Below are positions 30,368-54,996 of a stretch of 64,000 nt of DNA, one piece after another. This DNA comes from Halapricum desulfuricans (lineage in GTDB: Archaea; Halobacteriota; Halobacteria; Halobacteriales; Haloarculaceae). Made by a program: the position numbers and the translations under genes. The stretch is from the NCBI RefSeq assembly GCF_017094525.1, contig NZ_CP064788.1:1225030-1289029 (forward strand), written 5' to 3'. The notes under the pieces were generated by a model that was not told where the DNA came from, made no database searches, and was given only the letters and a program-made list of their open reading frames with translations. Within the stretch, counting starts at the first letter, position 1, and each line of letters begins with the position of its first letter.

Positions 30368-30460
30368 ACGGGGACTGGGGATACTACCCCGCTGATAGCG
30401 TGTTCCAACTCATCTTTGCACGGTGAAGTGGGTGCCTGACATAGGTGCCAGCAAAGACAG

Positions 30461-30748
30461 ATGACGTCGGTCACGGAGTTTTCTGAGGCTCACGTCCAAA
30501 GCTGCACGGAGGGACACGACAGTAATCCGCAATACTTGGGCGTGATGATCGGTCTCGTCGGGCTTGTGGGACTCACCAATGCTCTACTCGCCGCTGTTTT
30601 GGCTGGCTTGCACATCGTGTGGTTCCTCTTGTTTCCGTTCGCGGCGGAACCGTGGCTCAAAGCCGAGCTCGGCGAGGACCACGAGCGCTATTGCAGCCGT
30701 GTGCCACGGTTTGTTGGATGGAAGACGTTCCACCGGCCAGCACGGTGA
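30461..30748 (+). pseudogene. Truncated isoprenylcysteine carboxyl methyltransferase-like protein (C-terminal part)
   Basis: 95 aa. From about residue 22 it matches the C-terminal half of ICMT/PEMT-type membrane methyltransferases: NPQYLGVMIGLVGLVGLT, two hydrophobic helices, then ELGEDHERYCSRVPRFVGW with the conserved Y-x-x-x-V-P-R. The N-terminal helices and most of the SAM site upstream of NPQYLG are missing. The first 20 residues are not family-like. It is probably a gene remnant that still has an open frame. Confidence 0.6.
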
Positions 30749-30804
30749 ACCCGACGGACAGTCCTGGACGGTTGGGGCTCCCGGAATTAGCAAGATCATA
30801 TGCT

Positions 30805-30820
30805 GCCCCTTTTGAACCGG
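30805..30820. repeat. GCCCCTTTTGAACCGG motif, solitary copy
   Basis: The 16-bp sequence GCCCCTTTTGAACCGG also occurs in the tandem repeat at 60612-60663. In both places it lies next to a truncated gene. Significance unknown. Confidence 0.5.
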
Positions 30821-30864
30821 ATGCCTCCAATAGGTTTTTTCGGGATCTGTTCGTACTGTTTCGC

Positions 30865-32034
30865 ATGTCCTCGGCTTCCGACGTCCCGTTTCGAGCACTC
30901 CTCCTGCTCTTTGCCGTGGTTCTCGTGGCTCTTTCGGGTTGTGCAGCGTTGGACAGTCAGCAGACGGAATTTCCAACGGCAGGGGCAGTCGAGGAGACGC
31001 TTGCCGATCTTGAAGCGGTGAATGCGACGGTCGTGTCCTCGCTGGACGGGTCACGGGTATCAGAACAGCAGATCGCGTTCGAAGTCGGGACCCAACGGAG
31101 ACGATCGACGACCCAAGTCGGCGAGACTGAGTCTCTGGTCGTGGCAAACGACTCCGTGACCTGGCGATACGACCGAGCTGCGAACACCGTTCAGGTGACT
31201 CGACGAAGCGATCGGGATCGACAGTCAAATGCCAGCATTTCGAGATCGATGGCGTCGATCTTCGGGAGATTGAACGCCGGGTCGGACGATTCCGAACAGA
31301 AAGATGTGTTGGAGCCACTTATCCTGCCGTCCGCCGGTGCAGGCGGTCAACAACCGTTTTCCGGGCCAGTGGAGCGTTTCGAGAACGCCTCGCTGACGTA
31401 TCTCGGGACCGAGACGATTGCCGATCGCGAGGCGTACGTTGTGGAGGTCGTCCCACAACCGGACGTCAACACGGCCAACATCACGTTGTGGATCGACAAA
31501 GAGTGGTACTATCCGCTCCAGTGGGATTCGACGATCGTCGTCGATGGAGAACGACGGACCGTCACGACGGCCTACCGGAACGTCACATTCAATCCCGAGA
31601 TCCCGGCCGACACGTTCAGGTTCGAGCCGCCGGCGAACGCGACGGTCGTCGAACGGACGGTCGTCAGCCGGTCCTTCGAGACCAGAGGTGAACTAGTCGC
31701 TGCGAGCGAGATGACGATTCCCGACCCGGACGTGCCCGAACCACTGATATTCGATTCCGCTCGATATTTCGATGACAACGGAACGGTCCGAACGTCACTC
31801 CAGTATACGAACGGGTCAGCAACGCTGCGCGTGACAAAGTCCGAACCGATCGGTGACAGTGCCTCTCTCCCCGAGGGAAATCGCGTCGAGATCAACGACC
31901 ACGAGGGAGTGATCCAGACATTCGAAAGCGGCACTTCGCTGGTATGGTCCTGTGAAGGATATCGATATACAGTCTTCGGCGACGTTCCGGCGGAGACGGT
32001 ACACGCCGTTGGTAAATCGATCAACTGTGGTTGA
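30865..32034 (+). CDS. LolA-like lipoprotein
   Basis: 389 aa. The N-terminus has a hydrophobic signal with a lipobox (LVALSGC, Cys about residue 27), so it is probably lipid-anchored outside the membrane. The mature part is a LolA-type beta-sheet domain (LYVD-like motif NITLWIDKEWYYPLQWD; TYLGTETIADREAYVVEVVP). It matches haloarchaeal proteins named outer-membrane lipoprotein carrier LolA family, although haloarchaea lack an outer membrane. The real role is unknown. It is 200 bp upstream of the degenerate histidine kinase in the same direction. Confidence 0.8.
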   Translation: MSSASDVPFRALLLLFAVVLVALSGCAALDSQQTEFPTAGAVEETLADLEAVNATVVSSLDGSRVSEQQIAFEVGTQRRRSTTQVGETESLVVANDSVTWRYDRAANTVQVTRRSDRDRQSNASISRSMASIFGRLNAGSDDSEQKDVLEPLILPSAGAGGQQPFSGPVERFENASLTYLGTETIADREAYVVEVVPQPDVNTANITLWIDKEWYYPLQWDSTIVVDGERRTVTTAYRNVTFNPEIPADTFRFEPPANATVVERTVVSRSFETRGELVAASEMTIPDPDVPEPLIFDSARYFDDNGTVRTSLQYTNGSATLRVTKSEPIGDSASLPEGNRVEINDHEGVIQTFESGTSLVWSCEGYRYTVFGDVPAETVHAVGKSINCG

Positions 32035-32237
32035 CCAGACAGCCTTTCGAGGATCGATTGTCTGTGATCCGTGTCATCGCTTATCGGATACGTTCCCACC
32101 CCGATATCCAAGTGTCACGGGCGTCTACAGGAACGCACAGGCCGCTGATCGAACGCGGCAGCGGGTGTCGCTCCACCCGCCGGCCGTTCGACGCCGTCAC
32201 TTTCGGCCCGACGCAACGCCCTGATCGACAACGATAC

Positions 32238-33893
32238 ATGGTGCCCCTCACTGCGCTCCGCCTCGGAACTGCGTTCTTCGCGACGCTGGTAGCCGTCACA
32301 CTTGTCGCAGTCCTTCTTCGGCATCGCGAGCGAGCCAGCGCCAGGGCCCTGCTGGGCGTCGGCGCAGTCACAGCAGTGGGGTCCCTTTTGCATCTACTGG
32401 TCGCCGATCTCACGCCGCCGAACGCGGCGCTCACGGTCACCGGCTGGGAGATCGAGGCGACGGCCTGGGTCGTGGTCGGCACGACTGTAGCGGTGATCGC
32501 CAGTGGGTTGTGGGTGCTGTTCGCCTTTCGATACACCGGTCGATCGCAACGCGTGATTCAGGTGACTGTCGGGCTTGTGGCAGGAATCTCGTTCGGCGCC
32601 GTCGGGATCGCAACGGCCGCGCTCGGAGATCCCTCGACGCTCGCTTTTCAGCTACTGACGGTGACGTATCTCCTGGTCGGATTCCTCGTGACGATCGGTG
32701 TGTTCCTCCTCATATGGATGTCAATTGGTCAGCAAACAGTTCCGTACCGGGAGCCGCTGTTGCTGTCCGCCGGTGCTATCGTGTTGCTGTCCGGGAGTTT
32801 CGTCGCACAGATAGTCGAACGCCCGATTCTCCTTCCGGCGTTCTCGTCGGTCGCGAGTGGGGTTTTCCTGATCGCTGTCATTCGCTATCCGGTCTTCGAG
32901 ACAGCGCCGGCTGCACGGGTTCTGGGCCGGGATCGCGTCGTCGACGAACTGGCCGACGGGATCCTCATCGTCGACCGGCGTGGACGGCTACGCGATCTCA
33001 ATCCGGCTGCGGAACGACTTTTCGACGTCTCGCGAGCGTCGGCCGTGGGGCAGCCGATCAAGTCGATAATCCCCACCTCATTCGATCCTGGAGCGCTGAC
33101 CAGAGACGGGGAATCCCACCGAGTCAAACTATCAGATGGAACAACGATTTCCGTTACTGCCGATCCTGTCACCGATGGGCGCGACCGATCATTCGGCTAT
33201 TTGCTGCGGTGTACGGACGTGACCAATCGACGGCGGCAGGAGGAACAGCTGACACTGCTCAGCCGGTTCGTCGTCGAGGTAATCGACGAGCGGATGGCCG
33301 CGGTAGCCGAGGAGGCGACGAGAGCCGGCGACTCGGAGTCCGTCGACTCTGCGGCCGCCGCGGATCAGATCTGGGAGCGGACGACCCGACTGACGAATCT
33401 AGTCGCCCAGACGCGGTCGATCGAACAGATAATCGCCGAAAACGGCGTCTCTCCGGGCCAAGAACTCGATATCTGCCCCGTCCTTCGAGAACTCCGTGAT
33501 TCGATTGCCGCGGGATCAGGTCCCCGGATCGAACTCGACGTTTCCGGAGACCCCATCGCCACGACAGTCAGTCCGGCGCTGCTGACATCGCTGCTCGAAC
33601 CAGTGCTCGAAGACGCGTACGACCACGCCGAGACGCGAGTTGATGTCTCGGTGGATCGTGACAGCCCGGCGATCCGGATCGTCGCCGACTGGCCTGACGC
33701 GACTGATCCCGGGGAACAGGATCACGACGCCCAACTGCCGCTGGCCGTCACGCGCCTGGAGATCGACCAGCTCGGCGGACATCTCTCCGTCGAGCGGACC
33801 GACGACGGGCGACGGGCGGTCGTCGTTGCCCTCCCCACGAATGACACACGCGAAGCGAGGCGAACGGGAGTAGATGGAGGTGCCGAGCGGTGA
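32238..33893 (+). CDS. Degenerate membrane histidine kinase (7TM N-terminus, PAS, kinase-like core)
   Basis: 551 aa. Residues 1-225 contain about seven hydrophobic helices, as in haloarchaeal 7TM sensor kinases. A PAS domain follows (LADGILIVDRRGRLRDLNPA). The dimerisation region (LLSRFVVEVIDERMAAVAEE) has no phospho-accepting His. The ATPase part lacks the N-box Asn (LLEPVLEDAYDHA), the DxGxG and the GxGLG motifs, keeping only the last strands (LEIDQLGGHLSVERTDDG). It is thus a pseudokinase by sequence. Its stop overlaps the GTG start of the next, intact kinase, so the two are co-translated and may form a heteromer. Confidence 0.8.
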   Translation: MVPLTALRLGTAFFATLVAVTLVAVLLRHRERASARALLGVGAVTAVGSLLHLLVADLTPPNAALTVTGWEIEATAWVVVGTTVAVIASGLWVLFAFRYTGRSQRVIQVTVGLVAGISFGAVGIATAALGDPSTLAFQLLTVTYLLVGFLVTIGVFLLIWMSIGQQTVPYREPLLLSAGAIVLLSGSFVAQIVERPILLPAFSSVASGVFLIAVIRYPVFETAPAARVLGRDRVVDELADGILIVDRRGRLRDLNPAAERLFDVSRASAVGQPIKSIIPTSFDPGALTRDGESHRVKLSDGTTISVTADPVTDGRDRSFGYLLRCTDVTNRRRQEEQLTLLSRFVVEVIDERMAAVAEEATRAGDSESVDSAAAADQIWERTTRLTNLVAQTRSIEQIIAENGVSPGQELDICPVLRELRDSIAAGSGPRIELDVSGDPIATTVSPALLTSLLEPVLEDAYDHAETRVDVSVDRDSPAIRIVADWPDATDPGEQDHDAQLPLAVTRLEIDQLGGHLSVERTDDGRRAVVVALPTNDTREARRTGVDGGAER

Positions 33894-35575
33894 TCCGACT
33901 CGCTTGGGCCGCGGTCGGCGTGGTCGTTCTCGGGACCGGCGTCCTGACCGCGGGACGAACCGCACGCCGACACGACCATCCGGGAGTTATCCCCTACGCG
34001 CTGCTGGCTGTTCTGCTCGCCGGCCTGGGTACGACGATCGCGTTCAGCCGGTCCGGTCTGGTGCCGATCGAACTCGATGCGGTCAGCGAGTTGCTCCTCA
34101 TCGGCGGGTACGCGTTCGCGTCGCTGCTATGGATCGCCTTCGTCTTCGAATACACCGGTCGCGGGCCAGCGATCACGCCGCGGCGTTGGGTCGGGATTGT
34201 CCTCCTCGGCGGGCTGACGGTTACGAGTACGGCGCTCACCTGGGGTCAGCAGACGGGCCGAGTTCGGCTGGAGGCACTCGGTCAAGTGTCGTATCTCACG
34301 ACGTTCGTCCTGCAGGTGGCAGTGTTCTCGTTGGGCCTGCTCGGCGTGGTGTTGCTCGTGCGCTCGGCGGTGACCTACGACGACCTGCCGCTTGGCTCCG
34401 CGGCGGTGTTCGTCCTCGCGGGTGTCGGCATCACGTTTCTGCCGCTTGCGATCGGCTACGGCGGTCAGCTCGGTGGCGAATCGATCTATCGTGTCGTATT
34501 CCTTCAGCTCACAATTGTCGTCGGCGTCTTCGCCTGGATCGCGTTCGGTACCGACGCCTTCGAGCGGGGAGCTGCGACGGGACATCTCGCACGGGAGACA
34601 GCCCTCGACGCGATGTCCGCCCCAGTGATCGTCGTCGATCGATCCGGCCGCCTACTGGACGTGAACCGGGTCGCCACAGAAACGTTCGGCATCGAGACGA
34701 CTCGACTCCGGAACCAGTCGCTCGCCGACGTGGCAGCTGTCCCTGCGAATCCTTCCGACGAGCAGCCGATCACGCTCCAGACAACCGCTGGACGGCGAGA
34801 CTTTGTCATCGAACGAACTCGAGTCGCCGACACAGACGGCGACGTGCTCGGCCGGGCCTACCGGTTTCAGGACGTCACGGACCGCGAGATCCGTGAACAG
34901 CGTCTTCAGGTCCTTAACAGGGTGATAAGGCACAATCTCCGGAACGATCTCGATGCGATTCGCGGGTTCGCGGAACCGATTCGTGACGAGGATCTCCCGG
35001 CGGAGGAGGCGGGTCAGTACTTCGACCGCATCGGGACGCTCGCGACCGATCTGGCCGATCTCGCGGATACTGTCGAACGATCCGGGCGCGTTCTGACCGA
35101 GGTCTACCTTGAACGAGAGCGGTGTGACCTTGTCGCGATCGCACGGACAGTCGCCGAAGGGGTCACAGATGCCGATGTTACGCTTGATGTCCCCGATGAC
35201 GTCGAGATCTGGTCCGACCGCGACGCGATCGAACTGCTCCTCGACGAATTAGTCGAGAACGCCGTGACGCACACCGACCGGACGACGCCGTCGGTGACGA
35301 TTCGCGTCCGCTCGACGGGCGGCGGCGGGCGAATCGAGGTCGCCGACGACGGCCCGGGGATCCCGCCCGAAGAGCAGGCCGTCCTCCTCGAAGGTGAAGA
35401 GACACCGGTCAGACACGGGAGCGGAATCGGCCTTTGGCTGGTCTCCTGGACCGTGACACGACTGGGCGGTGACTTGTCGTTCGACAAACGCGATCCACGT
35501 GGAAGCGCCGTACGTATAGATTTACCGGGCTTCCAGGACTCGATCCGCCCCGATCCGACGGCGGAGGGATCGTAG
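33890..35575 (+). CDS. Membrane sensor histidine kinase (7TM, PAS, HisKA, HATPase)
   Basis: 561 aa, starting at GTG in a 4-bp overlap with the pseudokinase. About seven N-terminal helices (to residue 225) are followed by a PAS domain (APVIVVDRSGRLLDVNRVA). The dimerisation helix carries the phospho-acceptor (RVIRHNLRNDLDAIRGF). The ATPase has ELVENAVTHTDRT (N-box), VADDGPGIPPEEQ (G1) and HGSGIGLWLV (G2). No response regulator is adjacent, which is common in haloarchaea. The architecture of the two tandem kinases is the same, suggesting duplication followed by decay of the first. Confidence 0.9.
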   Translation: MIRLAWAAVGVVVLGTGVLTAGRTARRHDHPGVIPYALLAVLLAGLGTTIAFSRSGLVPIELDAVSELLLIGGYAFASLLWIAFVFEYTGRGPAITPRRWVGIVLLGGLTVTSTALTWGQQTGRVRLEALGQVSYLTTFVLQVAVFSLGLLGVVLLVRSAVTYDDLPLGSAAVFVLAGVGITFLPLAIGYGGQLGGESIYRVVFLQLTIVVGVFAWIAFGTDAFERGAATGHLARETALDAMSAPVIVVDRSGRLLDVNRVATETFGIETTRLRNQSLADVAAVPANPSDEQPITLQTTAGRRDFVIERTRVADTDGDVLGRAYRFQDVTDREIREQRLQVLNRVIRHNLRNDLDAIRGFAEPIRDEDLPAEEAGQYFDRIGTLATDLADLADTVERSGRVLTEVYLERERCDLVAIARTVAEGVTDADVTLDVPDDVEIWSDRDAIELLLDELVENAVTHTDRTTPSVTIRVRSTGGGGRIEVADDGPGIPPEEQAVLLEGEETPVRHGSGIGLWLVSWTVTRLGGDLSFDKRDPRGSAVRIDLPGFQDSIRPDPTAEGS

Positions 35576-35675
35576 CTGTGGTCGCGATGCGGCGTCTGAG
35601 GACATGGTTTATGTCGCTTGTCGCCCAACGCCCCAGTCAAGACGGCCGATCACCTGATCGGTCCTCGCTATACCC

Positions 35676-37025
35676 ATGACAAACCTCCATCGACGACGGT
35701 TTCTGGAACTCGGCGCGGCAGCGACGGCAGTCTCGCTCGGCGGCTGTCTCGGGTCCAGCGATGAGATGCCGGCCTACGCGGAGTGGATCCCGGCGACGGA
35801 TGGTGGCGTTCACGTTGGCTATCTGGACTTCAGTATCGCGACCGAGGCAGAAGGTGGCAACGAACTGTTGCCATTGATCCTTCCCACGAACGCGACCGGT
35901 AGTCCCAGGGAAGTCTTGAGCGAAGTGTCGGGTCTGGATAGTGTCGATGATCCGTTGCTCACCTGGCCCCTCGAAGTCGGGGGGAAACTGATCGCCGGGG
36001 CAGCACTTGGCATTGCTGTGTCCGGACTCGGCCATCTCGTCGATCCGGAACAGCCGGACCGCGGTATCGAGGAACTGTTCATGGCTGACACCGTGGCTGT
36101 CGGACGAGGTACAATCGACCTCGACGAGGCGGCGGAGACACTCCGGTCGGGATCTGACGGTCCGATCGGAGAAATTCCGTTCGAGGAATCGGGGTCTGTC
36201 GGGGAGTTCACGCTGTATGAACCCACCGACGACGAGACACTGGACGGCGTCACGGCGATCAGCGAGACTGCCGTCCTCGTCGCCGACACCCGCGAAGAGA
36301 TTCAGCGCGTCGTCGAGACCACGCAGGGTGAACGGGACAGAGAAATCGAGGAGACGGAGACCTTCGAGTGGCTGCTGGAGACAGCAGGCGACGGCCACGT
36401 CGCAGGCGGTTGGATGGGGCCGATCGACCTGGAAGACGTGTATTTCGGTGATCCAGCAGAGCGTCCCGTGGACGACCTTCTCAGAGCAGACGACGACGTC
36501 CTCGCGTCGGTGACTTTTGACCCCAACGAGGGCGAGGTCACAGCCGATCTCGCTGTCCAGCGCCCGCTCGACGACGCAACGGCCAGCCGGCTCGAATCAC
36601 AGTTTGGATCCGAAAGCGGAGATCACTCGGTGTCGATCGAAGACGAGCGGGTGACCGCTAGCGGAACCTACAGCGAGGACGTTCTCGATTTCGAGTTCGC
36701 CCAGCCCGACCGGACGACGACAGCGATCCCCGATGCGAGCGAGCCGGTCGATCCGCCCAAAGCGGTCGCGAAAGCAGTCCCCGACGATGCGTTCGAGTTC
36801 ACCTACGAGGCCGATCAGGACCGCGTTAAGATCGGGATCACCGAGGACCTCGACGTCGAGGAAGTGACGTTCGAGGCCGTCAAGGCGGACTACGAAGCCT
36901 CAACGACGACGCCACGAGCTGACATGTACATGTACGTTTACGTCGACACGGAGGGTGACACCGTGGTCGTGACTGTCACCGTTGACGGCACTTCGGGCGT
37001 CGTCGCTCGAAAGGAATTTCCCTGA
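35676..37025 (+). CDS. Tat-secreted lipoprotein of unknown function
   Basis: 449 aa. The N-terminus HRRRFLELGAAATAVSLGGC is a twin-arginine signal with a lipobox, so the protein is probably exported by Tat and lipid-anchored. The mature part is acidic with alternating helices and beta strands. The C-terminus is beta-rich (MYMYVYVDTEGDTVVVTVTV, then GTSGVVARKEF). That terminus has a partial copy at about 48.45-48.61 kb (VVVIVTVDGESGIVARTEL). No family is recognised. It follows the kinase pair by 100 bp in the same direction. Confidence 0.75.
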   Translation: MTNLHRRRFLELGAAATAVSLGGCLGSSDEMPAYAEWIPATDGGVHVGYLDFSIATEAEGGNELLPLILPTNATGSPREVLSEVSGLDSVDDPLLTWPLEVGGKLIAGAALGIAVSGLGHLVDPEQPDRGIEELFMADTVAVGRGTIDLDEAAETLRSGSDGPIGEIPFEESGSVGEFTLYEPTDDETLDGVTAISETAVLVADTREEIQRVVETTQGERDREIEETETFEWLLETAGDGHVAGGWMGPIDLEDVYFGDPAERPVDDLLRADDDVLASVTFDPNEGEVTADLAVQRPLDDATASRLESQFGSESGDHSVSIEDERVTASGTYSEDVLDFEFAQPDRTTTAIPDASEPVDPPKAVAKAVPDDAFEFTYEADQDRVKIGITEDLDVEEVTFEAVKADYEASTTTPRADMYMYVYVDTEGDTVVVTVTVDGTSGVVARKEFP

Positions 37026-37044
37026 CGGTGACTCCAGCCGCCGC

Positions 37045-37500
37045 TCAGGGTCGCACCACGATCGTGTTCCCCACTCGGTCACCGAGACGTCTGTCCGATT
37101 TCGAGACAGCGATCGTGACGATCCCGACCAAGTAAAAGAACGGTAACCAGTCGATCAATCGGAGGAGATTCCGGAGGAGTGAACCCAGAAGCGACGGCGA
37201 TTTTCCGTCCACCCCAGTCACTTTTATGCTGACGAGGTACTTCCCGAGCGTCTTTCCCCACCGCCACTCCAGAACGGTGTGATACAAAATCGAGACAGCA
37301 AGCCAGAGAGTCAATCCCGCGAGTGCTGCCCCGCCTTCCAAGTTCGTCTCGACCCCCTCGCTCGTGGTCTGCAAGTCACCGGTCATGAGGCCGACGGCTG
37401 AGACGGTGATCATGAACAGGGCCATCCAGATGATCGAGTCGATCGCCATCGCGACGCCGCGGATACCGACACCACAGCGCCGCTTGGTGTTCGAACTCAT
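37045..37500 (-). CDS. RDD family membrane protein
   Basis: 151 aa with three hydrophobic helices. The family signature near the N-terminus (RRCGVGIRGVAMAIDSIIWM: Arg...Asp) is followed by the loop LEWRWGKTLGKYLVSIKVT and a C-terminal GDRVGNTIVVRP. RDD proteins include putative ion transporters. I chose the ATG at 37500; the frame extends to 37563 but runs into the mobile-element-like region. It converges on the Tat lipoprotein, 19 bp apart. Confidence 0.88.
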   Translation of the reverse strand: MSSNTKRRCGVGIRGVAMAIDSIIWMALFMITVSAVGLMTGDLQTTSEGVETNLEGGAALAGLTLWLAVSILYHTVLEWRWGKTLGKYLVSIKVTGVDGKSPSLLGSLLRNLLRLIDWLPFFYLVGIVTIAVSKSDRRLGDRVGNTIVVRP

Positions 37501-37539
37501 CGTACCTAGGACTTGGTCCACGGGCGGAAAGGTCGTGTC

Positions 37540-37830
37540 CGTGCGTTTCTGCCGGTGAAACATTCCGCCCTAACGGCGAGGCGCGGACCGTCGTCAGCGT
37601 CTTTCAAGGCGGAGTCCCCGGCCTCAACGAGCGAACCCGTCAGGTTGAAAGAAGTAGGGAGGGGTCGGTTACACCCGCCTCCGGTCGGGGCGGGCATGAG
37701 TTCCTATGAAATGGTAGATAATCAACCAGTGTGCAGTGTTTCCAGGCACGAAACGCTCGGGGATTCCCCTCACGCTACGTGGGAAGTCAGTCGAACTGCT
37801 TGAATCCACCCAGAAAGGGTTCGTCTAATA
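37540..37830 (+). mobile_element. Probable 3' end remnant of an IS200/IS605 (tnpB) element
   Basis: The block GGTGAAACATTCCGCCCTAA onwards, through GGCGGAGTCCCCGGCCTCAA and GGGCATGAGTTCCTATGAAA, to GTGGGAAGTCAGTCGAACTG, closely resembles the 3' part of haloarchaeal tnpB elements as I remember them. The overlapping guide-like RNA maps to that part. One frame reads ETFRPNGEARTVVSV, then breaks because of a 4-bp insertion before AAGGCGGAGTCC. The nuclease domains are absent. The identification rests on memory and needs a search. Confidence 0.4.
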
Positions 37831-37932
37831 TCATTTCCGTTCGTTCTCCTGACGATGACGACAGACGTGCTCCCGCATATCGGTGAGCGAGTCGAACTGT
37901 CGGGGGCAGTGGGACCATTTCAGGAGCGGCAT
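37831..37932 (-). CDS. 33-aa zinc-finger-like micro-protein
   Basis: Encodes 33 residues, with CPRQFDSLTDMREHVCRH containing Cys and His residues spaced like a small zinc finger (one Cys, then His-x-Cys-x-His). A strong Shine-Dalgarno sequence GGAGGT lies 6 bp before the ATG, which is unusual here. A palindromic promoter-like block sits about 40-55 bp upstream. These make translation likely in spite of the size. Haloarchaea are rich in such small zinc-finger proteins. Confidence 0.5.
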   Translation of the reverse strand: MPLLKWSHCPRQFDSLTDMREHVCRHRQENERK

Positions 37933-37970
37933 TGTGGTACCTCCGCGTATCACAGTATTCGGCCCACGTT

Positions 37971-37987
37971 CATATACTTGGTATATG
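37971..37987. promoter_or_regulatory. Palindrome CATATAC-ttg-GTATATG, promoter/operator of the micro-protein
   Basis: Perfect 7-bp arms around three bases, overlapping TATA-like sequence. The palindrome is 39-55 bp upstream of the ATG on the minus strand, a suitable place for a repressor binding over the core promoter. Confidence 0.45.
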
Positions 37988-38138
37988 GTCAAAGAGGCGT
38001 TTGGGGCACGCTCAGCGACGATCCGGGCAGTGTCCAGAGAACGTCACACACTCGTTTACCACAGGCGTACAGGTCACAACCACCGACGACACACCGGCGG
38101 TATTATCGGTGATCGTCGGCTATCGCAGCCGTTTTCGA

Positions 38139-38444
38139 TCAGTCGTCCGGTTCCGTGCTGACGACGTCGACACCGTCGTGGTCCTCGGCGTCGTCACCGC
38201 CGCGTTCGAACGCGAGTCCGGCGAGGCCGGTCGCGATCATCCCGACGCCGGTCGCGCGCGTGGCGTCCGTGTACCACTCGCGCGGTTCGAGTTCGTCGGC
38301 GTTCTCGAACCCCATCGTCAGCATCTTCGAGGACATCTTGAGCGCCAGTCGCGGCGCAAGCGCGTACAGGACGCCGTTGAGCGCCAGCCACGCGTAGCCG
38401 GCCGAGCGACACTTCCCGCCCATCGAGGGACATTTGTCGAGCAT
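38139..38444 (-). CDS. Small conserved membrane-associated protein
   Basis: 101 aa starting MLDKCPSMGGKCRSAGYAWL, with two hydrophobic segments (about 15-30 and 72-88) and an acidic C-terminal tail (GGDDAEDHDGVDVVSTEPDD). The central MSSKMLTMGFENADELEP is amphipathic. Similar short proteins occur in haloarchaea, but I recall no family name. The ATG at 38444 lies 38 bp downstream of the MutS-like gene stop, so they may be co-transcribed. Confidence 0.65.
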   Translation of the reverse strand: MLDKCPSMGGKCRSAGYAWLALNGVLYALAPRLALKMSSKMLTMGFENADELEPREWYTDATRATGVGMIATGLAGLAFERGGDDAEDHDGVDVVSTEPDD

Positions 38445-38482
38445 CACTATCGATAGGGGCTCCAGCACTGTCAATGCACGCC

Positions 38483-40237
38483 CTACCGCGACCACCGGGC
38501 GTCAGAGAGGGTCCGCTGGACGGCTTCCTTGCCGATCGCCCGTGCGAGGGTGTCGAACCCGGCTCGCTCCTCGCGGTCGTCGGCGTCGGCCACGAGCCGC
38601 GAGACGATGAACTCCGGCGTCGAGCGCCCGACCGTCTCGAACCTGGGCTGGTAATCGACTTCGAGTTCGAGTTCCGGCGTCAGTCCTTCGGCGAAAATCC
38701 CGTCGATTCGGGCCGACTCCGGGAGCGGCGCCAGATCGTCCGCGAGGTGGGTGACGAACACGCCCAGCGCCTCGCGTTCGACCGTCAGCGTCACCAGCCC
38801 GTGGAGCAGATCGGCCGCGCTGCCGGGTTCGGTGATCGCCTCGAACTCGTCGACGAGCATCAGCGTGTGACCCTCGGCAGAAAGCGGCGGAACGACGTTT
38901 TTCAGCGTCGATTCGAGCACGCCGGCGTTGAAACTGGCGTGACGCCGGTGGAACACGATCGCGTCCACGAGCCCGACTTCCGCCGCCTGTGTCGGGACGG
39001 GTAGTCCCATCTGGGCGAGCAACTGCACCTGCGCGAGCGTCTCCAGCAGCGTCGTCTTCCCGCCGCTGTTGGCGCCCGTGAGAACGGTGACGCGGTCGCC
39101 GCTGGGAGGCGCGTTCGCCGTCGGGTACTGCAGGCCGTGCTCCCCGACGGCGTAGTCGACCGGCTGGACGGTCTCGTCGTTGGCTTCGAGAAAGAGGTTC
39201 CGGGCGTTCTCGACGGCGAGGACGTCGCTGTCGTCGACGAACGTCGGGCGCGTGAGATCGAAGTCGATCGCGAAGCGAGCCAGCGACAGCGACAGCGCGA
39301 TGTCGTCGACGGCTTCGACCGCAGTGTCGATCTCCGGACGTGCGTCGTCGATCGTCTCGCGGGCGTCAGCGGCGACGGCCTCGGCCCGCTCGTCGACGGC
39401 CGAGCGGAGATCGTCGGCGAGCGATCGCAGCGTTGCCGCGACGAAGTCCCGCGCGTCGGTCGCGTCGGCCGGCATCGCGGCCCGAGCGCGTTCGAGATCG
39501 GTACCCGTCTCCCGGACCACGTGATCGAGGACGCCCTCCTCGAACTCTTCGCTCGTCCGGATCTCGCTGCGGACGCGCTCGACGACCGACTCGCTGTCGG
39601 CCGCCAGGTCCTCGACGGTCCCGAGCTGCGTATCGAGTTGCTGCAGCGTCTCGTCGGCCCCGGCCGCGACCGACCCGTCGCCGTCCAGTGCGGCCAGTGC
39701 GTCGGCCGCTTCGGCGAGTGCATCGGCGTCCAGTTCGCCCAGCGACTCGAACACGCCCGTGTCGAGGCCGGCGTCCCGGAGCGCGAGCGCGGCCCGGACG
39801 GCAGACAGATCGCCGTCGAGACGTTCGTAGGCCTCGAAGGCGTCCATCACCGTTTCGCGCTCGGCGTCGTCGAGGCGCGCCCACGTGTCTCTGGCCTCGA
39901 TCACGTCTTCGAGGCGATCCGTCACGTCGCCACGGTCGCGCAGTGGCGTGAGCAATCGGATCCGGTCGGCGGCGTGATCGGTGACGGCATAGCGGCCGAT
40001 TACCGAGAGCAGATCCTTGTAGACCTCACGCGCGTCCCGCGTGGCGAGGACGTCCATCGCGGCTCCGCCCTCGACGCGCCGCAAGATTCGCGTCGCCCGG
40101 CCGCGGCTCAGTCCGGCCTCAGTCAGCGTCCGGATGTCTCCGCTCTCGATGGCCTCGACGGCCGTCTCGACGCCCAGTTCGGAGGCGAGCAACTCACTGG
40201 TCTTCGGTCCGACGCCCCAGTAGTCCTCCAGTCGCAT
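38483..40237 (-). CDS. MutS-related ATPase with N-terminal helix-hairpin-helix
   Basis: 584 aa. The N-terminus is a helix-hairpin-helix (YWGVGPKTSELLASELGVE ... GLSRGRATRILRRV). A long helical, acidic coiled region forms the clamp/lever (about 90-330). The MutS-type ATPase has Walker A TGANSGGKTTLLETLAQVQL-like GANSGGKTT, Walker B LMLVDEFEAI and FVTHLADD. This matches the archaeal MutS-like proteins (COG1193-related, lacking the mismatch-recognition domain and the Smr nuclease). The role is probably DNA recombination or repair rather than classical mismatch repair. Confidence 0.88.
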   Translation of the reverse strand: MRLEDYWGVGPKTSELLASELGVETAVEAIESGDIRTLTEAGLSRGRATRILRRVEGGAAMDVLATRDAREVYKDLLSVIGRYAVTDHAADRIRLLTPLRDRGDVTDRLEDVIEARDTWARLDDAERETVMDAFEAYERLDGDLSAVRAALALRDAGLDTGVFESLGELDADALAEAADALAALDGDGSVAAGADETLQQLDTQLGTVEDLAADSESVVERVRSEIRTSEEFEEGVLDHVVRETGTDLERARAAMPADATDARDFVAATLRSLADDLRSAVDERAEAVAADARETIDDARPEIDTAVEAVDDIALSLSLARFAIDFDLTRPTFVDDSDVLAVENARNLFLEANDETVQPVDYAVGEHGLQYPTANAPPSGDRVTVLTGANSGGKTTLLETLAQVQLLAQMGLPVPTQAAEVGLVDAIVFHRRHASFNAGVLESTLKNVVPPLSAEGHTLMLVDEFEAITEPGSAADLLHGLVTLTVEREALGVFVTHLADDLAPLPESARIDGIFAEGLTPELELEVDYQPRFETVGRSTPEFIVSRLVADADDREERAGFDTLARAIGKEAVQRTLSDARWSR

Positions 40238-50545: not shown

Positions 50546-52069
50546 ATGGACGATCGACTTCACGCAGCTCCGATCGGCGCTCTCACGGTGTCAAGCGAGG
50601 GGGTCATCAGCGACAGTAACGAGACGGCCCAGGAGTTACTCGGCGGAGATCCGAGCGGCAGCCCAGTCGCCGAGTCAGACCTCCGGTCGGTCGAAGACTC
50701 GCTACTGGCAGCCCTCGAAGAGCCGACCGACGAGGTAACCTTCGAAGAGTACTATCCGGAACTCGAACGATGGCTGTCCGTGACTGTCACTCCCGTCGAC
50801 GGTAACGTGACGGTTTACTTGCGTGACGTCTCCAGACGGTATCGCGCCAGGCAGACGGTAGAGACGCTCCGGTCGGAGCGCCGACGGACAGCCGCAATCG
50901 ACGAGACACGCTCCGAGGTCGTGGCCGAGCTCGTCTCGTCACCGTCCCGAGAGGAGATCGAACGAACGCTCGCCCGTGAGCTGGGTGAACGGGACCTCTG
51001 GTCGTTCGTCTGGATCGGTGAGCGAACCGACGGAACGGCCGGCCTTGACGTCCGGGCAGTCGCGGGGGAGACCGGTGACACGTTTCCCGCTGTGCGGGAG
51101 ACCATCGAACGTCCAGCCACGACGCCCGAGGAGCGTGCCGTCGAACAACAACAGATCCAGGTCGTCAGGTCGATCGCCGACGAGGATGGTATTCCCGAAG
51201 CGGTCCGGCTGGCGGCGTTCAGCGACGGCGTCCAGTCGATGCTGTCGGTTCCACTCACGTACGGCGCGGCCGTGCACGGCGTCGTCGGCGTCTATGCCGA
51301 TCGAGTCGACGCGTTCTCCGAACGCGAACGCACGAGCTTCGAGACGCTCGGGACAGTCGCGGGGTTCGCCGTCACGGCCGGGCGCAACCGGGACCTGCTC
51401 CTCTCGGACACGGTCACGGAAGTGACGTTCGAACCCGGCGCCGACGCGCTGCTGGTGGCGGTCGCCCGAGAGGTGGATGCGACGATGGCGCTCACGGGAA
51501 CCGTTCCACACGAGAGCGACGCCCTGCTCTGTTACGTGACACCGACGGACGGCGATCCCGACGACATCGCAGCCGCTGCTTCGAACAACCCCGACGTCGG
51601 TCACGCGAGAGTGCTCGGTGACAGCGGCACGGTCGAGATTGAACTCCATCGCGCGACGCCGTTGATCGAAGTGTCATCGCTGGGTGGCACGATCCGCCGG
51701 GCGACGTACGAACCGGACGACAGTCAGATCGTCGTCGAGTTCCCGCCCGATAGCGATACCCGCAGGATCGTCACGTCGCTCACTCGCGAGTACGACCTCG
51801 ACGTTCGATCGAAACGCGAACGCGAACGGGGAGCCACGACCGCCCGCGAGTTCCGCGACGGGCTGGCCGAGCGGCTCACCGAACGCCAGAAAACCGCGCT
51901 CCGTACGGCGTACTTTGCTGACTACTTCGAAACGCCGCGGGGGAGCACCGCCGAAGAGGTCGCGGACTTGCTCGATATCACCGGGTCGACACTGCTGTAT
52001 CACCTTCGGGCAGGACAGCGAAAACTACTATCGGCGTTCTTTGATGGCGTTGGCGACCGAGGCGAGTGA
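50546..52069 (+). CDS. Bacterio-opsin-activator-type regulator (PAS, GAF, HTH_10)
   Basis: 507 aa. Layout: PAS-like N-terminus (IGALTVSSEGVISDSNETAQ), a GAF-like domain (about 130-290: VQSMLSVPLTYGAAVHGVVG), the Bat linker domain, and a C-terminal HTH_10 (LTERQKTALRTAYFADYFET, then STAEEVADLLDITGSTLLYH). This is the architecture of Bat-type haloarchaeal regulators, which activate genes in response to light, oxygen or other signals. The target here is unknown. It follows the histidine kinase by 5 bp. Confidence 0.9.
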   Translation: MDDRLHAAPIGALTVSSEGVISDSNETAQELLGGDPSGSPVAESDLRSVEDSLLAALEEPTDEVTFEEYYPELERWLSVTVTPVDGNVTVYLRDVSRRYRARQTVETLRSERRRTAAIDETRSEVVAELVSSPSREEIERTLARELGERDLWSFVWIGERTDGTAGLDVRAVAGETGDTFPAVRETIERPATTPEERAVEQQQIQVVRSIADEDGIPEAVRLAAFSDGVQSMLSVPLTYGAAVHGVVGVYADRVDAFSERERTSFETLGTVAGFAVTAGRNRDLLLSDTVTEVTFEPGADALLVAVAREVDATMALTGTVPHESDALLCYVTPTDGDPDDIAAAASNNPDVGHARVLGDSGTVEIELHRATPLIEVSSLGGTIRRATYEPDDSQIVVEFPPDSDTRRIVTSLTREYDLDVRSKRERERGATTAREFRDGLAERLTERQKTALRTAYFADYFETPRGSTAEEVADLLDITGSTLLYHLRAGQRKLLSAFFDGVGDRGE

Positions 52070-52160
52070 TCAGTTATCCAGATCGGGGACCGAGAGGACG
52101 ACTTCACGTCTCACCGGCAATTCTCGGGCGGCAGAGGGCCGACGCGTACCAAGCAGCTCG

Positions 52161-52487
52161 TTATCTGCGAGAACTATCAGTCTCCCGCCGTCTCGCTTCG
52201 AGACCGTTCTCGTCAAGCGCGATAGCGAACGACACGTCGACGGCCTCGAACTGTTCCCGATGGTGGCCGTCAGTCTGAATCTGCATTTCGCTGCGGACGA
52301 GCCCCGCATCGCGAAGGTCGTTAAGTCGTCGATACGCGGTTGCACGGGAGATGTCTGCTGCCTCGGCGACCTCACGGCCGCTTCGAGGCTGTTCGGCGAC
52401 GAGCCGGAGGACCGTTCGAGTGTACTCGTCACCGAACAGATCCAGCAGTTCGGGCGTCGTCAGGTTATTGGAAACGTCGCTATCCAT
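52161..52487 (-). CDS. Winged-helix HTH regulator
   Basis: 108 aa from ATG 52487 (a GTG at 52523 would add 12 residues). The HTH is LLDLFGDEYTRTVLRLVAEQ, then SGREVAEAADISRATAYRRL and DLRDAGLVRSEMQIQTDG. This is an ArsR/MarR-like haloarchaeal winged helix. A C-terminal beta segment (FEAVDVSFAIALDENG) ends it. It is divergent from the HalX response regulator at 52675, with a repeat-containing gap, and may regulate it or be linked to it. Confidence 0.82.
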   Translation of the reverse strand: MDSDVSNNLTTPELLDLFGDEYTRTVLRLVAEQPRSGREVAEAADISRATAYRRLNDLRDAGLVRSEMQIQTDGHHREQFEAVDVSFAIALDENGLEARRRETDSSRR

Positions 52488-52561
52488 CGGTCGTTTCGGC
52501 TTGGAGGGATCAGCGGTGGACACGGTAAGTACCAGGAGTGGGAGTACAGTAGAACGTGTGG

Positions 52562-52608
52562 CTAGGTATGCAGAGAAGCCGCTTCGCCCTCCCTTCTAGG
52601 TATGCAGA
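52562..52608. promoter_or_regulatory. Direct repeats CTAGGTATGCAGA x2
   Basis: Two identical 13-bp copies (52562-52574 and 52596-52608), 34 bp apart centre to centre, or about three helical turns. They lie 67-113 bp before the response-regulator start and could be regulator-binding sites for either divergent gene. Confidence 0.4.
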
Positions 52609-52674
52609 CGTTATCGACCCGACTTGTTCCGAAGGCCTATACCGATACGGCCCACATATGGTCGTATTCTGTAG

Positions 52675-53274
52675 ATGGTGGAACCCGGCCCACACGAGAA
52701 TCTCCAAGTGCTCGTCGTCGACGACGAGCGGGAAGTCGCCGACGCATACGCCCTCCGTCTCCGGGGGTTCTGTGCAGTCGAAACTGCCTACAGCGGCCAG
52801 GACGCGCTGTCGGTCATCGACGGCTCGGAGGTAGATATCGTGCTGCTCGACCGGCACATGCCTGATATGTCCGGCGACGAGGTGCTCGCCGAACTCGACG
52901 ATCGGGAGTATTACGGTCGCGTGATTATGGTGACGGCTGTTGATCCCGATTTCGACGTGCTCGAACTCCCGTTCGACGAGTATCTCTGCAAGCCGGTCGA
53001 ACGGGAGGATCTGCAGACCGTGGTCGACCAGCAACGCCGGGTCCTTGCCTTTGATACCCTCGGAGAGTACTTCAGCGTCGAGTCGAAACGGGCGGTGATC
53101 GAGGCACAGACCAGCGACGAACGACGACAGAACCACGACGGATACGCTGACCTCGTCGATCGCTCCAAACAGCTCCATGAGCGTGCGACGCGACTCCTCG
53201 GGGACAAGAACGTGCTCGAACAGTTCCACCGGATCGGACGTGAGCGCTCGGATCGGTCAGCTACCAATCGGTGA
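52675..53274 (+). CDS. Response regulator with HalX C-terminal domain
   Basis: 199 aa. Receiver domain about residues 10-120, with the acidic pair in VLVVDDEREVADAYAL, the phospho-Asp in IVLLDRHMPDMSGDE, Thr in VIMVTAVDP and Lys in YLCKPVERED. The C-terminal 70 residues (LGEYFSVESKRAVIEAQ) are a HalX-type helical domain, a haloarchaeal output or dimerisation unit. No cognate kinase adjoins it, though the kinase/Bat pair lies 600 bp upstream. The stop is followed 44 bp later by palindrome copy E. Confidence 0.9.
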   Translation: MVEPGPHENLQVLVVDDEREVADAYALRLRGFCAVETAYSGQDALSVIDGSEVDIVLLDRHMPDMSGDEVLAELDDREYYGRVIMVTAVDPDFDVLELPFDEYLCKPVEREDLQTVVDQQRRVLAFDTLGEYFSVESKRAVIEAQTSDERRQNHDGYADLVDRSKQLHERATRLLGDKNVLEQFHRIGRERSDRSATNR

Positions 53275-53318
53275 AGCTGCGGGCTTTCGCGCTGTTGCCG
53301 TATGACTATGGCTATTGA

Positions 53319-53398
53319 TACGGTCGGTTGTAAGTCTGTTCCGGATCGATCGCCTCCGTTATGCGATCGTACCGGTAAATCGTTACAGCAGTCACTGC
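53319..53398 (+). repeat. 80-bp palindromic element, family 1, copy E
   Basis: Core TGTTCCGGATCG, inner stem GATCGC/GCGATC and ACCGGTAAATCG, with an end TACAGCAGTCACTG. More diverged than the other copies. It lies between the HalX gene and a membrane protein. Confidence 0.75.
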
Positions 53399-53463
53399 GA
53401 TCTCGTTTCACGTCCCGAAACACTGTGGGCTGTTTTACTGTTGGCCCCCTCGTTCGTGATAAC

Positions 53464-54150
53464 ATGGAGACTGCCACACACTCCACGTCGAGAACAGACG
53501 CGGAAACGCGCGTCGCGTTCAGTCCCGTAGTCGACTGGATCGTCGGCGCGATACTCGGTCTCGTCGGGCTTTTCACCGGCGGTACCGGTGCGGTGATTTA
53601 CTCCGAGATAGACAGAGCGAGCGCGGTAGAGTTCGTGAACGATGCCGATATACAGACGGACGTGTTCACCGACGCAGAACTCGTCGACGCGCTGGTGGCC
53701 GTGGGAGAATGGCTCGGTATCGGGCTCGTCGCTGCCGGCGTGCTGACCGTGGTCGCAGGGGTCGCGCTCGTCGTTTTCCATCGCCAGGCCCGAGCGGCAG
53801 GCGAACCGACGCAGCGATGGATGCTCGGTCTCGTCGGCGCGGTCGTCAGTGTCGTCACCGGGTTTCTGATCGTTTCGCCACTGCTCGGCGGCGGGGTCGC
53901 GAGCTACCTCGATCCGGTCGAACACCGGAGCGGATTCCGGACGGGTGCTCTCGCCGGCGTCTTCGCCGTCGTCCCGGTGCTCGTGGTCGTGCTCTTCGGA
54001 ATCGTTGGAGCGTTTGCTGGCCTCTCCGGTGAGCTGGTAACGGCTATCGCCGGACTCCTGGCCGGCACTGCGGTGCTGTATCTCCTGTACTTTGTCGGCT
54101 TGAGCGCGGTCGGCGGCTACGTCGGCGCGTGGATCGCGTCAGAAGGCTAA
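53464..54150 (+). CDS. Haloarchaeal membrane protein (four to five helices)
   Basis: 228 aa. A short polar N-terminus (ATHSTSRTDAETRVAFSPVV) precedes helices at about 25-45, 75-95, 112-140, 160-185 and 190-220, rich in Gly/Ala/Val. An external loop follows the first helix (DRASAVEFVNDADIQTDVFT). I recall haloarchaeal families such as DUF5518 with this look, but the match is not secure. The ATG at 53464 was chosen because the upstream frame reads through palindrome E. Confidence 0.7.
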   Translation: METATHSTSRTDAETRVAFSPVVDWIVGAILGLVGLFTGGTGAVIYSEIDRASAVEFVNDADIQTDVFTDAELVDALVAVGEWLGIGLVAAGVLTVVAGVALVVFHRQARAAGEPTQRWMLGLVGAVVSVVTGFLIVSPLLGGGVASYLDPVEHRSGFRTGALAGVFAVVPVLVVVLFGIVGAFAGLSGELVTAIAGLLAGTAVLYLLYFVGLSAVGGYVGAWIASEG

Positions 54151-54198
54151 AGCGGACGCCATTCGATTCAAGACCCCACACTCCAAACGCCTCAACCG

Positions 54199-54996
54199 AT
54201 GAGATGGTCCGTCCGAGGGGTGCCGATCACTGTCGAGCACACGTACCGGTTCCAGGGCACTGAGTACACGAGCCGACAGGTGTTCCCTGGACGAATTAGC
54301 CCCATGTACGTCCTCCGGAGCGATGCGGCGGCGGTCATCGAACCGTACGAACCGAACGCGACAGCGACCGCTTACGTCGATCCAGACGCGCCGAGTCAGG
54401 CGTTTCTCGAACGCCGGACGGTGCGCATGCCCTTCGTATACGTCGGATTCGGTGGTCTGCTCGCCCTCTTGACGACGCTTCACGCTATCGGTGCGCGCAA
54501 CCCCGGTCAGGACACGGAGTTGCGACTGGGGGACGAATACGGGTCGACACGTGACGAAACACTGCTGGGATTCGATCTCGGCACGATAAACAGTCTCAGT
54601 AAGTACCTCATGCTCGGCTCGCCGGTCGTTCTCGCGCTATCGCTCGTCGGGACAGTGTATCTCACATACCGGGCCGAACCGTCGTCGGTACAGGCCGAGA
54701 TCACGGACCCGATCGGAGTTACGGCTGTCGGTGCTTTCGTCGCTGCGCTCGGGCTGATCGCCGGACTCGCACTCTATACTGCCTGGTCGTTCAGCGAGTA
54801 CCGTCGACTCCGCGAGCGGATTCCACAGCCACGGCCCCCGAGTCCGTTCAGACATCCATCACGGCTCGTCACGATTCTCTACACCAGCGACGGCCTCGAC
54901 ACGTACGGGAAGCGAGTGAAGCTGACGGGGTTTGCCGGAGTTGTGACGGTGTTTATCGCCGTAATTCTCGCCCTCGTGCTCGTCTGGGGAGCGTAG
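54199..54996 (+). CDS. DUF3592-like membrane protein, N-terminally shortened
   Basis: 265 aa. The N-terminal beta region (EHTYRFQGTEYTSRQVFPGR, then YEPNATATAYVDPDAPSQAF) matches the extracellular domain of DUF3592 proteins, which normally follows a first transmembrane helix. Here the protein starts inside that domain, so the leading helix is absent. Three or four later helices remain (MPFVYVGFGGLLALLTTL and others). Either the gene is truncated, or the start is further upstream in another frame. It is probably co-transcribed with the membrane protein before it, 48 bp apart. Confidence 0.65.
   Translation: MRWSVRGVPITVEHTYRFQGTEYTSRQVFPGRISPMYVLRSDAAAVIEPYEPNATATAYVDPDAPSQAFLERRTVRMPFVYVGFGGLLALLTTLHAIGARNPGQDTELRLGDEYGSTRDETLLGFDLGTINSLSKYLMLGSPVVLALSLVGTVYLTYRAEPSSVQAEITDPIGVTAVGAFVAALGLIAGLALYTAWSFSEYRRLRERIPQPRPPSPFRHPSRLVTILYTSDGLDTYGKRVKLTGFAGVVTVFIAVILALVLVWGA

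Follow-up and report, generated by a model that had tools for sequence, protein, structure and literature searches.

Haloquadratum IS605-type elements have been described as being cut by repeat-mediated deletion to 'terminal-only' PATEs, and such core deletions are reported to be frequent in that genus (Dyall-Smith et al. 2011, PMC3119063). Omega RNAs, termed sotRNAs in haloarchaea, are described as overlapping tnpB and as being associated with its 3' end (PMC12558985). In Halobacterium salinarum, the small zinc-finger protein Brz, encoded beside bop, is reported to be needed for high bop mRNA, and small zinc-finger genes are noted to accompany its Bat homologues as well (PMC2253796).

Herein, we analyzed a haloarchaeal window (the whole stretch of 64,000 nucleotides), in which positions 37540-37830, hereafter the block, had been read in the initial annotation as the possible 3' end of a tnpB element. 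The right end (RE) of an IS200/IS605-type element was indeed found at 37616-37672, fused to the left end (LE) at 37594-37634, whereas the rest of 37540-37830 was not IS DNA, and the one-element reading was abandoned in favor of an RDD-gene promoter (37540-37570), an LE (37594-37634) overlapping the RE (37616-37672), and the flank of a zinc-finger gene (37673-37830). On sequence grounds, the block is a composite of three unrelated pieces, and we consider it highly probable that this make-up is correct and that no guide RNA is present. The working part of the block would then be host-type regulatory DNA. The features are as follows.

30409..38062: island of ~7.65 kb, largely Halorhabdus-like, holding the block
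37045..37503, minus strand: RDD-family membrane protein gene (Pfam RDD, 7.6e-20)
37540-37570: RDD-gene promoter DNA, part of the block, not IS DNA
37545..37561: GTTTC-N7-GAAAC palindrome of the RDD promoter, 44 bp upstream of the RDD start
37594..37634, plus strand: LE of an IS200/IS605-type element, 80-93% identical to LE parts of related, mostly tnpB-less miniature elements
37616..37672, plus strand: RE of an IS200/IS605-type element, 75-90% identical to the RE of tnpB-bearing and miniature elements
37673..37830, minus strand: non-IS DNA flanking the zinc-finger gene on its 3' side, most of it 74-76% identical to the DNA of Halorhabdus G073 and G067
37674..37695, minus strand: G+C-rich hairpin GCCCGCC...GGCGGG, directly after the conserved NTG
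37738..37754: second GTTTC-N7-GAAAC palindrome, 40 bp before the conserved NTGCCCGCC on the minus strand
37831..37932, minus strand: 33-aa C2H2-type zinc-finger micro-ORF (alignment, dN/dS)
37939..37944, minus strand: GGAGGT ribosome-binding sequence
37972..37986: ATATAC-TTG-GTATAT, TATA region of the zinc-finger gene
53405..53421: third window palindrome GTTTC-N7-GAAAC, 42 bp upstream of the start (53464) of a DUF5518 membrane-protein gene

Identification of a 79-bp transposon relic

The relic spans 37594-37672 (79 bp) and consists of an LE and an RE fused within a common CTCAACGAGCGA, with GGTCGGTTAC as the RE terminus. The initial annotation depended on a similarity to IS elements, and this was found for 37616-37673 with a best E of 1.4e-15. 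Since sequence resembling 37616-37673 sits just 3' of tnpB elsewhere, it was assigned as the right end. The comparison covered 40 distinct loci outside the window having an LE or RE match, on whose fetched sequences the TnpB proteins of the own genome were placed; in 9 of them an RE-like sequence followed a same-strand tnpB match at a distance of 36-132 bp, and in 27 no tnpB was found by these queries. The ~57-bp RE sequence was widespread in the family, with 75-90% identity to 37616-37673. When 37560-37835 was used as the query, 59 of the 146 family genomes gave a partial match, mostly at the RE or LE part. Nine plasmid records matched, the best place of each falling inside 37586-37676, the LE/RE stretch; the phage collection gave no match. 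Matches to 37572-37604 in G001, G004, and G104, which lie inside unrelated coding sequence, were judged by eye to be due to chance and were discarded.

In 12 of the 40 loci, an LE and an RE were paired in the same orientation, no more than about 500 bp apart, as miniature elements, several of the pairs forming elements of ~390 bp without tnpB inside, and other end-fused copies were seen at L053, L070, and L074 among the 11 loci printed. A transposase gene is impossible by length in a 79-bp relic, and no tnpB match was obtained in the three window-derived loci, which agrees with the absence of the nuclease noted earlier. The overlap of LE and RE in CTCAACGAGCGA was as expected from core loss between palindrome-like direct repeats; an intact or undeleted element at the joint was seen in none of the genomes looked at. 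Both near-terminal ends were present and matched those of tnpB-bearing and miniature elements, and the relic resembles the terminal-only PATEs of Haloquadratum walsbyi, as they are described, in having two fused near-terminal palindromes and no transposase (PMC3119063). The likeness is to their described structure. Those PATEs are 52 bp in length versus 79 bp here, and the present relic, unlike them as described, lies within an island at a break in synteny (PMC3119063). The transposon part is an ordinary relic of an already known kind.

As a separate observation, a ~390-bp tnpB-less miniature family (L048, L067, L072, L090, L094, and others) shares the same LE and RE and has a conserved ~200-bp core before the RE, and L004 in the own genome (G000:C1:1093531) has the ~200-bp miniature core and the RE. 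Such miniature elements would be better orphan guide RNA candidates than the block, if any exist in this group.

Probable absence of a guide RNA from the block

In the guide-RNA reading, 37540-37830 would be transcribed from the plus strand into a guide (omega) RNA that has outlived its nuclease and was recruited to control the zinc-finger gene, which would call for another TnpB of the genome acting in trans. In the own genome (2.89 Mb, single contig) the TnpB C-terminal domain was matched 26 times, and the right end is genuine, both of which speak for this reading; nevertheless, we regard it as extremely improbable. As in haloarchaeal omega/sotRNA loci, the right end belongs just 3' of tnpB, on the side where such RNAs are described to lie, but the block differs from them in holding neither the tnpB 3' coding part nor the core up to the RE that would make up the scaffold (PMC12558985). 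The element core between LE and RE is gone, the two being joined directly, and therefore no guide-RNA-like scaffold is left to survive. The first 16 nt after the RE, furthermore, had no other match in the own genome at 0-1 mismatch; at two mismatches, 7 forward and 5 reverse matches besides itself were obtained, versus 5 and 4 in the backwards control. The predicted fold of the block RNA was unexceptional (z of -1.45, with 15 of 200 shuffles folding as well), and the zinc-finger gene and its flank occur in Halorhabdus without an IS end. Rfam gave no match in the block, but this is uninformative because 14 loci, several of them with tnpB and RE, also gave none. Being without tnpB and without the element core, the relic is, as judged from its make-up, inert as a guide RNA, which removes a false lead.

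The island and its joint

In the sister genomes G001, G002, G004, and G005, the counterpart of window ~30400 to 29546 came no more than a few hundred bases after the gene corresponding to 38139-38495, so that the ~7.65 kb between those points is extra in the window and absent from these four of the five sister genomes (the fifth being G003). Identity to Halorhabdus within 30777-38047 was 74-85% by stretch: 75% to G073 (32230-37570), 78% to G071 (32202-37570), 80% to G067 (32225-37479), and 76% to G068 (32098-37570), with about 79% for 30777-32040 and 83% for 37844-38047; 30409-30776 had no match in Halorhabdus. The homology on the RDD side stopped at 37570 in three of the four loci and at 37479 in G067, that on the zinc-finger side ended at 37656 or 37673, and the relic lay between the two. 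In G073, the zinc-finger unit is situated across the sensor genes, beyond a response regulator, whereas in the window it adjoins the RDD promoter; the relic sits where the island gene order departs from that of Halorhabdus.

From these homologies we infer that this haloarchaeon took up a Halorhabdus-like island, the direction of transfer included. The core-deleted ('terminal-only') IS200/IS605-type element would mark the joining of the RDD-gene promoter to the zinc-finger 3' flank, the simplest route being recombination at the near-terminal palindromes, which have CTCAACGAGCGA in common, within one copy of the element or between two. This haloarchaeal locus would illustrate how a transposon relic made up of ends only can sit at a rearrangement joint.

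The zinc-finger micro-gene

The 33-aa zinc-finger-like ORF directly adjoins the block on the opposite strand as annotated (coding 37834-37932, stop to 37831, minus strand), and its GGAGGT was located at 37939-37944, GGAGG being conserved in six of the seven aligned zinc-finger units and replaced by GGCGA in G070. As for the palindromic promoter described earlier, ATATAC-TTG-GTATAT does exist at 37972-37986, but because only one half is conserved in Halorhabdus, a TATA region is the better reading.

The DNA of the zinc-finger unit was detected in 6 of the 146 family genomes, namely the own genome and five of the seven Halorhabdus genomes (G067, G068, G070, G071, and G073; not G069 or G072); the search matched 14 genomes, the other eight in the RE part only. 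A protein profile gave strong matches in the same six of the 392 genomes of the order and weaker ones (E of 1e-6 to 0.01) in 15, the best of which was G357 (L102), and the window protein was the sole profile match in its own genome. In G067, which is Halorhabdus amylolytica, the gene occurs in two tandem copies. By eye, the pattern C-x2-C-x12-H-x3/4-H was kept in the six relative copies, with the first Cys lost in the window; Pfam C2H2 models stayed below their cut-offs in the three copies scanned.

The loss of the first zinc-ligand Cys in the window results from a C6W substitution (KWSHC in place of KCSNC/KCSHC), through which the protein may have lost zinc binding. It is plausible from this change that the gene is failing and has lost its function there, and that it is a pseudogene decaying after transfer is a possibility of some weight, albeit one we would not favor. 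Besides C6W, its status as the only profile match in the genome and the cutting of its 3' flank by the IS relic point in that direction, while the intact frame, the retention of C9, H22, H26, and a further C24, and a dN/dS of 0.15-0.38 against the six relative copies argue for a maintained gene, although most of that divergence may predate the transfer.

By analogy with Brz beside bop, the micro-protein is probably a small local regulator, acting as a transcriptional co-regulator. Like Brz as described, it is a zinc-finger protein of very small size whose gene lies next to others (PMC2253796), and in Halorhabdus G073 a homologue of the window GAF-BAT-HTH_10 (Bat-type) gene lies about 8 kb from the zinc-finger gene. 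It differs in being of the C2H2 type (CxxC-x12-H) and not of the CPxCG pattern given as defining the Brz group (PMC2253796): CPxCG/CPxCx/CxxCG was absent, the relatives having CSNC or CSHC followed by P or S and the window WSHCP. A further difference is that the window protein lacks the first Cys.

The 3' flank of the zinc-finger gene

As to whether the pair is kept elsewhere, the zinc-finger gene with the landmarks of 37673-37830 recurred in five of the seven Halorhabdus genomes, but no IS end was seen at that place in them. The flank DNA was matched by search in G067 and G073, whereas G068, G070, and G071 were matched only in the ORF and its upstream part, and there the flank palindrome and NTGCCCGCC were recognised by alignment. 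The gap from the palindrome to NTGCCCGCC was exactly 40 bp in all six sequences compared. GTTTC and GAAA were invariant in the six, the last base of the palindrome being changed in G070, and the N7 varied with no covariation. A TATA-like TTGATTATC lies between the palindrome and NTGCCCGCC in the window, at -28 to -20 from the NTG, and is not kept in G071, G068, and G070. The TGCCCGCCC of the G+C-rich hairpin was invariant in 6/6, and the hairpin appeared in the minimum-energy fold of three of five sequences (window, G073, and H. amylolytica; not G071 or G068). The reading frame after NTGCCCGCC was not conserved, with only the first residues in common and frames of 9 to over 50 aa; a conserved micro-protein starting at NTGCCCGCC would be a candidate at most. 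On the minus strand of the window, a 63-aa frame (37506-37697) also runs from the conserved ATGCCCGCC through the IS relic to just before the RDD start codon, probably by chance.

The position of this DNA directly after the ORF invites the view that 37673-37830 is not a promoter but serves the zinc-finger mRNA as 3' untranslated region and terminator, with a 5-bp GTTTC/GAAAC stem and the GC hairpin. The hairpin is followed by TTTT in H. amylolytica and the TATA-like stretch is missing from three genomes, in keeping with this view. Against it, the GTTTC-N7-GAAAC palindrome also stands 40-46 bp before the start codons of other genes, GTTTC and GAAA are invariant in 6/6 around an N7 that varies without covariation, and the window has TTGATTATC at -28 to -20 relative to the NTG, and we hence consider a terminator rather unlikely. 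In the reading as regulatory DNA, the two palindromes of the block would be operators for a dimeric regulator, the first serving the RDD gene and the second a putative short transcript starting at the conserved NTGCCCGCC beside the zinc-finger gene.

The GTTTC-N7-GAAAC palindrome

Exact copies of the palindrome numbered three in the 64-kb window (37545, 37738, and 53405), two of them within the block; allowing one mismatch added no further copy, and at that tolerance 19 of 100 window shuffles also reached three. The palindrome was picked after seeing the data, and its statistics are to be read as post hoc. In the own genome (G000), N7 accounted for 11 of the 20 GTTTCN(4-10)GAAAC sites, with four for N10 and 0-2 for each other spacing (P about 6e-7 over a background of 1.5 per spacing, post hoc), and 4 of these 11 lay inside likely genes. 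The excess was mild in G012 (N7 in 9 of 29 sites, N6 in 6) and not seen in the sister genome G001 (4 of 24; N5 and N10, 7 each). Four of the seven N7 sites of G073 fell within 12.7 kb, which 0 of 200,000 random placements reached, and four of nine in G071 formed one cluster (8.5e-5 under random placement), the backwards control for these comparisons giving 0-1 matches per genome; the clustering in the window was weaker (0.014).

The survey of start codons took in 18 sites, among them a minority of the 34 Halorhabdus sites and none of the four G000 sites inside likely genes. At 12 of the 18, an ORF of 60 aa or more began 40-46 bp downstream. Six of the 12 represent one orthologous RDD/DUF5518 promoter in six genomes, two a duplicated locus, and one is 37738 with its doubtful 63-aa ORF. 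The remaining six comprised two with a short NTG frame at 40 bp (the zinc-finger flanks of G073 and G071), two at 71 bp, one at 74 bp, and one intragenic site. The RDD start was located 44-46 bp from the palindrome in six genomes (44 bp in the window, 45-46 bp in five Halorhabdus), and the DUF5518 start 41-42 bp away in five Halorhabdus and at window site 53405; where the two genes diverge, one palindrome suits both spacings. No haloarchaeal paper on GTTTC-N7-GAAAC was found in a literature search whose coverage left out most subscription journals.

From the spacing we infer an operator upstream of TATA, whose candidate regulators in the cluster would be its Bat-type and winged-helix proteins and its HalX response regulator. 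The fuller proposal is tentative, and we would call it possible at best: that the palindrome 40-46 bp before (leaderless) starts is the operator of an undescribed haloarchaeal regulator; that its copies in Halorhabdus are concentrated in a single cluster, which encodes sensor and membrane proteins, Bat-type and HalX response regulators, and the 33-aa C2H2 micro-protein, the last of these working with the regulator as Brz may with Bat; and that this cassette partly moved between genera, the block carrying two of its promoters. The operator and Brz-like readings are weaker than that of a composite block without a guide RNA. The conserved micro-gene and the palindrome are real and worth a bench test, the palindrome being a testable, sharply defined promoter element at fixed spacing before a small gene set and beside a zinc-finger protein of fewer than 40 residues.

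Other observations

A lipoprotein-like 172-aa gene occurs twice in the own genome in opposite orientation (L164 and L166; G000:C1:938898 and G000:C1:1150876), the two proteins being identical in their first 60 residues and having the palindrome 41 bp upstream. A second cluster, at window 50546-54993, encodes a Bat-type GAF-BAT-HTH_10 protein, a winged-helix protein, a HalX response regulator, DUF5518, and DUF3592, and shows partial homology with the portion of the Halorhabdus cluster missing from the island. In addition, window 55039-59541 holds a 1500-aa ribonucleotide-reductase-like ORF, which, judged from its translation, seems to contain an intein.
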